Under the pieces are notes generated by a model. That model was not told where the DNA came from, ran no database searches, and saw nothing but the letters and a program-made list of their open reading frames with translations. This document shows, piece after piece, positions 27,511 through 47,519 of a stretch of 64,000 nucleotides of DNA (position 1 is its first letter; every line of letters starts with the position of its first letter). Where the stretch lies: contig JAKOUW010000202.1 in assembly GCA_029782365.1 (NCBI GenBank), positions 186,001 to 250,000 of the forward strand, written 5' to 3'. Made by a program: the position numbers and the translations under genes. Origin of the DNA: Chloroflexota bacterium. Its GTDB lineage: Bacteria > Chloroflexota > Anaerolineae > Anaerolineales > UBA4823.

Positions 27511-27857
27511 ATAAAAAAAATCTCCTCGCCGCGAGCTGATGCTCGCAGGGGCGGGAGATTTCCCGTGGTGCCACCCTGGTTAGGCGGTTTGCTTAAACAA
27601 AAACCCTGCCGGTGATGCGACAGGGGATAAAAGCCAGCCTCACTCTTTCCGGGTACGCACAACCCGTAGTTGTTGAATACCCTGGTTCGCTAACGGGAAC
27701 TCCCGGTTCGAGCTACTCAGCAACATCCACCTTTCTCTCGTACAGCTCCAAGGTCCATTCCGCTCCAGCGTCCGGGCAAGACTTTCACCTGCGCTTGCTC
27801 TCTGTGCCGGCGTTTCGAAGCGTACTCGTCCTCTTCACAGCCTTTGGATTTAATTGT
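27511..27857 (-). ncRNA. T-box leader, tRNA(Trp)-sensing, upstream of trpE
   Basis: Read on the minus strand, the leader of about 360 nt carries GAGTA of the 5' side of the specifier loop (about 27825). A candidate specifier codon TGG (Trp) sits at 27757-27755 in the context GGAATGGACC. The conserved T-box core AGGGTGGCACCACGGG lies at 27577-27562. An intrinsic terminator follows: the stem at about 27561-27541 pairs with 27536-27515 and ends in a run of eight Ts at 27520-27513. Uncharged tRNA(Trp) is expected to pair with the specifier and the T-box bulge, favouring the antiterminator and letting transcription enter the 14-gene operon. Exact ends are estimates. Confidence 0.92.
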
Positions 27858-46096: not shown

Positions 46097-46375
46097 ATGT
46101 CTCCCAAATCGGATTCACACACATTAAAAATCGCACGTATCCAGACAGGCGTGCGCATGGAAGTAAAAATGTTGAAAGTGCTCAAAGCCCTGGCGGAATA
46201 CCTGGATGTTTCGCTCGGTGATTTACTAGAAGGAATCATCGCTCATGCTTTTGAAAACAAGGCTCCTTTCAGCGCCTCAACCCTCGAAAAAATCGCCATG
46301 TTGAAGAATATTTATGGGATGAATTACGGGGCTGAAGGCAGTCACCAGCTCGTCGAAGAACATCCGCAGGAGTGA
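46097..46375 (+). CDS. Small ribbon-helix-helix-like protein
   Basis: This 92-residue protein shows 'LKIARIQTGVRMEVKMLKVLKALAEYLDVSLGDLLEGIIAHAFENK', a beta-strand followed by two helices, the layout of ribbon-helix-helix (CopG/Arc-type) DNA-binding proteins. A C-terminal extension (about 60-92) contains another short helix. I place the start at ATG 46097 (MSPKSDSH), about 30 nt after the predicted transcription start; the Shine-Dalgarno sequence is weak (AAAAGAAA). A VOC gene follows after 4 nt and a MerB-like gene after that. It is probably the operon's own regulator (inference from fold and from the tandem repeats at the promoter). Confidence 0.6.
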   Translation: MSPKSDSHTLKIARIQTGVRMEVKMLKVLKALAEYLDVSLGDLLEGIIAHAFENKAPFSASTLEKIAMLKNIYGMNYGAEGSHQLVEEHPQE

Positions 46376-46379
46376 TCAA

Positions 46380-46754
46380 ATGGCAGAATTTCCACCCAGC
46401 GGGCTTGCTGTAGTCAGTGTGCGCACCCATCATCTCCACGAAACGCTGATATTTTACCGAGATGTGGTAGGGTTGAATGGGCTGGTTCATCATGGGCACC
46501 AACCCGCCTTCGAGCTGGGGAATGGCGCCTTCCTGGTCATCGTCGAGGCCCACGAGGATGCCCCTCCAACAACCCCGGAGCCGCGCTTTCCTTTGCTGGC
46601 ATTCGCCGTCCAAGATTTGGATGAGGCTGTGGCGCGGCTCAAGTCCCATCGAATTGACCTGCCCTGGGGAATTAACAGCAATCCGCAAAGCCGCTGGGTA
46701 GAATTCTACGATCCCGGCGGAAACCTGATCGAATTGGCGCAGTTTATCCACTGA
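46380..46754 (+). CDS. VOC family protein in the MerB-like operon
   Basis: This 124-residue vicinal-oxygen-chelate protein shows 'AVVSVRTHHLHETLIFYRDVVGL' and 'LAFAVQDLDEAVARLKSHRI', ending 'WVEFYDPGGNLIELAQF' with the metal Glu. It contains no cysteine at all, so it is unlikely to be an ArsI-type C-As lyase. It is clearly paralogous to the VOC protein at 12804-13187 (shared 'LPWGI' and 'FYDPxGNLIELxQ'). AGGAGTGATCAA precedes ATG 46380; the gene lies 4 nt after the regulator and 6 nt before the MerB-like gene. It may act on the same compounds as the lyase. Confidence 0.85.
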   Translation: MAEFPPSGLAVVSVRTHHLHETLIFYRDVVGLNGLVHHGHQPAFELGNGAFLVIVEAHEDAPPTTPEPRFPLLAFAVQDLDEAVARLKSHRIDLPWGINSNPQSRWVEFYDPGGNLIELAQFIH

Positions 46755-46760
46755 GGGTCT

Positions 46761-47519
46761 ATGGAAGATAAGATTTTAATGGGGCTGGGCAGCCTTATTC
46801 AGGCTGCATCATCAGCGCAATGGGAACAAAGCCTTTCAGCCGTTCCCCTTCACAGCCAGGTCAGGTTGAATTTCATGACAGAAATCCATCATCGTACCAG
46901 GTATTTTGTCGTGAGCGAATTGGTCAAAAGCCAGCATCCCATTTCGCCAAAATGGATCTCCAAAGCCCTCGACATTCCCAATCAGCAAGTGGAAAACATT
47001 CTGGGGGATTTGGAGCAAAACCTGTTTTTCCTGGTGCGCAATGAAGAGGGCTGTGTGACCTGGGCATTTCCATTCACCGTCCAACCGACAGCGCATTCGC
47101 TAACATTCAGCAGTGGAGAGCGCTTATACGGCGCTTGAGCAGAAGACGCAGTGGCGTCGTCCTTCGTGCAAGGACGGTTACTTAACAAGCAGCTTGCGGT
47201 GGAAATTTCTACGGAATGCGAGCACTGCGGCCAAAGTCTTCATCTCACAGTGGACAGAGATTTGCAGGTGTTCGTGCGCGAAAACAAGGCAAGGCCTTTG
47301 ATCTTCCTGCCTGATGTGACCTGGAGTACTTTCACAGAGCCCAACATCATTCACGCTTACTGAATGAATTCATTGTTCTTCTGGTCAGAAGAACACGCCA
47401 GGGAATTCAGGCAAAACTCTAGCCAGGTCAACGGCATTTACCTGACATTGGAGCAGTGCGCTTTGCTGACACCCATCACCCAGGGTGGGCTTTTTGCCTT
47501 CAATCGGTTGAGACCTTAG
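46761..47519 (+). CDS. MerB-like organometal lyase with two in-frame UGA (Sec) codons
   Basis: One frame of 252 codons, ended by TAG at 47517-47519, contains exactly two internal UGAs, at residues 126 (47136-47138) and 201 (47361-47363). Reading UGA as selenocysteine gives a full alkylmercury lyase-type protein: an N-terminal winged-helix-like region, 'WAFPFTVQPTAHSLTFSSGERLYGA-U-AED', 'VEISTECEHCGQSLHLTVDRDL', 'NIIHAY-U-MNSLFFWSEEHAREF' and 'GIYLTLEQCALLTPITQGGLFAF'. MerB uses Cys96, Asp99 and Cys159. Here U126 and D129 keep the Cys96-Asp99 spacing, and U201 lies before 'xxxLFFxS' as Cys159 does. Family members cleave carbon-mercury bonds. Hairpins follow each UGA. Sec machinery is not in this window and must be encoded elsewhere. 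TGA ends other genes normally, so the code is not altered. Confidence 0.85.
47139..47158 (+). promoter_or_regulatory. Candidate SECIS hairpin after first UGA
   Basis: Six nucleotides after UGA 47136-47138, GACGC (47145-47149) and GCGTC (47154-47158) form a perfect stem with loop AGTG, containing the G-U typical of bacterial SECIS loops. It is shorter and closer to the UGA than the second hairpin, so it is the weaker candidate. Confidence 0.55.
47374..47395 (+). promoter_or_regulatory. Candidate SECIS hairpin after second UGA
   Basis: Ten nucleotides after UGA 47361-47363, TGTTCTTCTG (47374-47383) pairs perfectly with CAGAAGAACA (47386-47395). With realistic loop size the stem is nine pairs with apical loop GGTC, the same GGUC found in the apical loop of the E. 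coli fdhF SECIS. Distance and loop fit SelB recognition. Confidence 0.75.

Follow-up and report, generated by a model that had tools for sequence, protein, structure and literature searches.

A putative MerB-fold protein with selenocysteine predicted in place of both catalytic thiols

The window analysed here, a stretch of 64,000 nucleotides taken as a whole, contains a gene whose product is best read as a double selenoprotein with the fold of MerB, the enzyme that cleaves mercury–carbon bonds, with selenocysteine (Sec) predicted at both positions of the catalytic cysteines. In the reading that we favour, and that we consider quite probable without being assured, the two UGA codons would be decoded by SelB and tRNA-Sec, and the protein would likely carry out a MerB-like reaction and probably act as a detoxification or salvage enzyme. 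It is probably an organometal(loid) lyase, its reaction and its substrate being inferred. A MerB-fold protein with Sec for both catalytic thiols had been put forward in the initial annotation of this DNA, and the proposal is now supported by the homologues, by the exchange of Cys and Sec among them, by two hairpins in the mRNA and by the Sec machinery of the genome. The coordinates of the features are collected in Table 1.

Table 1. Position of the double-UGA gene, its key codons, the predicted hairpins and the two genes upstream
Feature	Position in the window	Strand	Evidence and remarks
Small putative RHH-like protein, no Cys	46097..46375	+	RHH_4 20.1 bits, below the cut-off of 25
VOC/glyoxalase-family protein	46380..46754	+	Pfam Glyoxalase 37.3 bits; 6 nt gap to the double-Sec gene
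Double-selenocysteine MerB-like protein (predicted)	46761..47519	+	252 residues, TAG stop; homologues, MerB profile, predicted fold
UGA codon 126, predicted Sec, at the MerB Cys96 position	47136..47138	+	UGA in 81/84 close relatives, Cys in 3/84; profile alignment
GAC codon 129, Asp, at the MerB Asp99 position	47145..47147	+	Invariant in 72 aligned members; profile alignment
SECIS-like hairpin 1, UCCUUCGUGCAAGGA	47160..47174	+	Starts 24 nt from the U of UGA126; five stem pairs, frozen synonymous sites
UGA codon 201, predicted Sec, at the MerB Cys159 position	47361..47363	+	UGA in 84/84 close relatives; profile alignment
SECIS-like hairpin 2, UUCUUCUGGUCAGAAGAA, GGUC apical loop	47376..47393	+	Starts 15 nt from the U of UGA201; seven stem pairs

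Translation with UGA read through gives a single frame of 252 codons broken by UGA solely at codons 126 and 201, as the initial annotation had described, and ending at a TAG; the motifs quoted for the two regions, ERLYGA-U-AED at site 126 and HAY-U-MNSLFFWSEEH at site 201, are present as well. The argument that two UGA codons falling on the catalytic sites would be improbable by chance has gained weight, as 81 distinct homologues, the window gene included, carry the same UGA pair. Among the 84 distinct close relatives found in public genomes, these 81 are accompanied by three genes with Cys126 and UGA201 (L078, L107 and L126) and by no all-Cys form, and two extra members with both UGA codons, outside the 84, came from the phylum-level search. 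The residues at 126 and 201 are exclusively Cys or Sec, with none of the unrelated residues that would have spoken against the proposal. At codon 125, which precedes UGA126, GCC (39/73) and GCT (34/73) are used and GCA or GCG never, a bias that is possibly a context effect on Sec decoding.

The close relatives share about 36–58% identity with the window protein, and three of them, from the same taxonomic family (42–57% identity), have two TGA codons each. Homologues were searched at the family, order, class and phylum levels and in GTDB r220 contigs; a single-sequence query of genome contigs returned no relatives, which were retrieved from the contigs with an alignment as the query. One of the contig search patterns required Cys at the first site, so that the contig scan did not disfavour Cys forms there. 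Judged from record titles, the gene occurs in Chloroflexota, Acidobacteriota, Desulfobacterota-type lineages, KSB1, Nitrospirota, Rokuibacteriota, Binatia and others; these labels are the titles of metagenome bins and individual assignments may err, all named records carrying the gene being metagenome-assembled. A plasmid copy of the gene was looked for and none was found. The protein 3′ of both UGA codons is conserved across phyla, with an invariant FFWSEEH block, and Asp129 is invariant in the 72 aligned members. On a quick tree the three Cys126 forms are scattered among the double-Sec members, a pattern consistent with separate Sec-to-Cys changes. In more distant MerB relatives from Chloroflexota that lack TGA, both sites carry Cys wherever the alignment leaves no ambiguity (L145, L146, L151 and L152). 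In one of the three relatives from the same taxonomic family (genome G029) two TAG codons are additionally found close to the C-terminal end, and in another genome (G143, loci L015 and L025) the match covers only the C-terminal part of the double-Sec homologue, UGA201 included, possibly because a remnant of the gene is all that is left or because the assembly or the frame is broken there.

Each UGA has its own downstream SECIS-like hairpin, predicted from the pairing and from the synonymous sites and positioned as bacterial SECIS elements are. Hairpin 1 lies at codons 134–138, 3′ of UGA126, with the family form CCCUUCGUGCAAGGG and the window version UCCUUCGUGCAAGGA, and hairpin 2, UUCUUCUGGUCAGAAGAA, at codons 206–211, 3′ of UGA201, its GGUC loop resembling the SECIS loop of E. 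coli fdhF. All five stem pairs of hairpin 1 are intact in 81/81 genes and all seven of hairpin 2 in 84/84, and in four genes, that of the window among them, the stem of hairpin 1 shows a double change from C-G to U-A. The relative synonymous entropy at the hairpin codons is 0–0.42 (73 genes with standard spacing), whereas 40 other conserved degenerate columns average 0.87 and none of them falls below 0.50. Hairpin 1 is lost and hairpin 2 kept in two of the Cys126 genes (L078 and L107), the third (L126) retaining both. By minimum-energy folding alone, site 1 stands out (mean z –1.3) and site 2 hardly does (–0.2); for this reason synonymous-site constraint and pairing were used instead.

The genome also encodes the means for decoding UGA as Sec: the initial annotation had called for a check of selA, selB, selC and selD, and all four are present, the tRNA-Sec (selC) with 71.5 bits and an ARAGORN call of tRNA-SeC. 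The selD gene of this genome (G000, C30:150842-151777) contains one in-frame TGA, in keeping with the Sec-containing SelD that is already known. The genome bin has an estimated contamination of 8.67%; the double-UGA gene lies on a contig of 303 kb and its homologues repeat the pattern. A tRNA-Sec with E < 1e-10 was found in 17 of 20 gene-bearing genomes, and the other three, where no clear match was obtained, are fragmented assemblies. In the whole class the figure is 248 of 297; as tRNA-Sec is about equally common with the gene and in the class, the co-occurrence is uninformative and only permissive.

Two other readings of the UGA codons have to be set against this evidence. Standard annotation would end the protein at codon 126, leaving an ORF of 125 amino acids, and UGA could accordingly be a true stop, the gene encoding a short N-terminal protein of 125 residues or being a decaying pseudogene. 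It is hard to see, in that case, why the protein should be conserved across phyla after both UGA codons, down to the invariant FFWSEEH, why 81 genes should have the identical UGA pair and why synonymous sites should be constrained after each UGA, and we give this reading almost no credence. Equally negligible, in our judgement, is the decoding of UGA as a residue other than Sec, by a reassigned code or by Trp or Gly read-through, for which nothing speaks beyond the UGA read-through itself. TGA serves as a normal stop elsewhere in the window, for instance at the end of the VOC gene upstream (46752-46754), and the genetic code is thus not reassigned; moreover, Cys is the replacement wherever UGA is replaced, selABCD are present and SECIS-like hairpins follow the codons. 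Decoding of UGA126 and UGA201 as Sec is strongly supported on these comparative grounds, with no expression, 75Se or mass-spectrometry data.

The assignment to the MerB fold rests on profiles and on a predicted structure. Pfam MerB (PF03243) matches the window protein with 52.8 bits (cut-off 27) and was matched by 72/72 scanned members, and the family profile finds MerB2 (5c17, E 2.7e-7) and MerB (3f2g, E 8e-5) in the PDB. The AF2 model of the protein (pLDDT 93.6) gave 11 Foldseek hits with E < 1e-3, all to MerB or MerB2, the best with a TM of 0.80 by target length. In the profile alignment codon 126 corresponds to MerB Cys96, D129 to Asp99, C153 to Cys117 and codon 201 to Cys159, so that the correspondence of U126, D129 and U201 with Cys96, Asp99 and Cys159 inferred in the initial annotation agrees with both alignment and fold comparison. 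The catalytic role of these three MerB residues is established (PMC8261052; PMC4525700), and the two predicted Sec residues and Asp129 would stand in their places, a placement that depends on model and alignment. The cut-off of the canonical MerB model NF009710 was not reached (38.4 bits, cut-off 193). Compared with MerB and MerB2 (PF03243; PDB 3f0o, 5c17), the window protein thus has the same fold and the same thiol and acidic positions, including C153 at the Cys117 place, but both catalytic Cys would be Sec in its family, a conserved FFWSEEH block is present, identity in the structural alignments is only 16–19%, and neither a mer operon nor a canonical MerA accompanies the gene.

The RHH-like and VOC genes precede the double-Sec gene within a few bases, and the VOC gene is likely co-transcribed with it; the RHH-like protein is a possible regulator. 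Whether the upstream VOC protein might be ArsI, a C-As lyase of the VOC family, was also considered; the idea was abandoned, the protein being without Cys. A conserved operon was sought around the homologues, but their neighbours vary and only small regulator clusters recur, with a lone regulator of the MerR type at six loci, of the MarR type at four and RHH-like at three, the window included; RHH-like homologues are upstream of the gene also in L060 and L071. The expected metal-binding cysteines are absent from the regulators adjoining the homologues, and the MerR-type protein of L102, with 43.8 bits, does not reach the mercury-MerR cut-off of 150.85. No mer operon genes were found near the gene and its homologues. 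A canonical MerA was not found in the genome, where the matches fall below the cut-off. MerA should end in a C-terminal Cys pair, which none of these MerA-like matches shows; they resemble dihydrolipoamide dehydrogenase or flavoproteins related to it. Elsewhere in the window a T-box leader was detected (27544-27847, – strand, 100.6 bits).

In the mechanism that we propose, SelB and tRNA-Sec would decode UGA126 and UGA201, each steered by its own hairpin. The resulting selenolates would attack or bind a soft metal or metalloid, and Asp129 would protonate the departing carbon group (protonolysis). The metal would stay bound to both selenolates and be taken off by small thiols or selenols, by analogy with the product release computed for MerB (PMC4525700). 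The outcome would be the detoxification or salvage of a soft organometal(loid); some lineages have a one-gene regulator beside the gene. Mercury is a possible substrate and remains unproven, and organotin or any other compound is likewise an inference. Where MerA is lacking, it is already puzzling how MerB keeps turning over and what becomes of Hg(II) (PMC8261052); two selenolates would make this worse, and mercury may therefore not be the substrate.

The initial annotation had mentioned a computational proposal of MerB-like proteins in selenium-dependent organometal metabolism; such a proposal exists, and concerns SaoL of the SAO system (PMC13188914). In an inventory of 119 prokaryotic selenoprotein families (May 2026), SaoL is the sole MerB-like entry, with one Sec, and a differing Sec position is ranked as a separate subfamily (PMC13188914). 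Like the window family, MbdU (NF045648) and MduS have two Sec per protein (PMC13188914, Table 1), but the domains of these known double selenoproteins are unrelated and none is listed with a MerB domain. NCBIfam release 20 has no model whose cut-off the family reaches. SaoL, an organometallic lyase of the SAO system that resembles MerB, was reportedly described by Haft and Gwadz in 2023. No paper on a double-Sec MerB was found in a literature search that did not extend to two key papers, and we judge that the family is apparently not yet catalogued and is a new variant of the MerB fold. A distant single-Sec Chloroflexota branch (L016-L019 and L056) carries UGA at the Cys159 position, and a SECIS-like hairpin with comparable spacing comes after it, the GGUC loop being present in 4/5; it differs in having Cys at the Cys96 position, in lacking FFWSEEH and in its identity of about 24–31%; its three scanned members are far below the SaoL and MerB cut-offs, and the branch may be another unlisted selenoprotein family.

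The window protein could itself be SaoL, which is likewise MerB-related, is predicted to be a selenoprotein (PMC13188914) and, through the model NF040728, provides the best NCBIfam match, the other 71 members also matching this model (best E 2.5e-16). The match of the window protein, however, reaches 46.3 bits with a cut-off of 140 and is limited to residues 39-167, SaoL is listed with one Sec instead of two (PMC13188914), and no SAO partner is seen with the family, SaoB having given no match in 22 genomes in a search without positive control; identity with SaoL is therefore very unlikely. More serious, if still improbable, is a MerB-fold double selenoprotein without turnover, which would bind or sequester a soft metal(loid) or act on a non-metal substrate. 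No MerA or mer operon partner is found, and the neighbouring VOC, MerR, MarR and RHH-like genes lack metal-sensing cysteines. From general chemistry, a bis-selenolate metal complex is expected to be very stable, and a product that is possibly very hard to release argues against turnover. Against this stands Asp129, at the place of MerB Asp99 and invariant in 72 members, as is expected of a catalyst, and the lyase remains the reading that we prefer. More tentatively, as a conjecture that falls somewhat short of probable, the lyase may represent a multi-phylum enzyme family with a bis-selenolate and Asp site that cleaves a natural metal(loid)-carbon bond other than that of methylmercury, outside the mer and SAO systems.

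The family is easily overlooked because standard annotation truncates the protein at the first UGA, and it occurs in several phyla, mostly in uncultured bacteria. It is apparently the first family of the MerB fold with Sec for both catalytic thiols, an unusual replacement that hints at a selenium-based chemistry of metal–carbon compounds not studied so far, and the gene offers a natural two-SECIS system with built-in Cys controls. The family makes it testable whether dual selenium ligands alter substrate range, rate and product release, and it bears on the organisms that have MerB-like proteins but no MerA, a question already raised (PMC8261052). If the wider conjecture is true, it would mean a selenium-dependent organometal metabolism apart from the mer and SAO systems.
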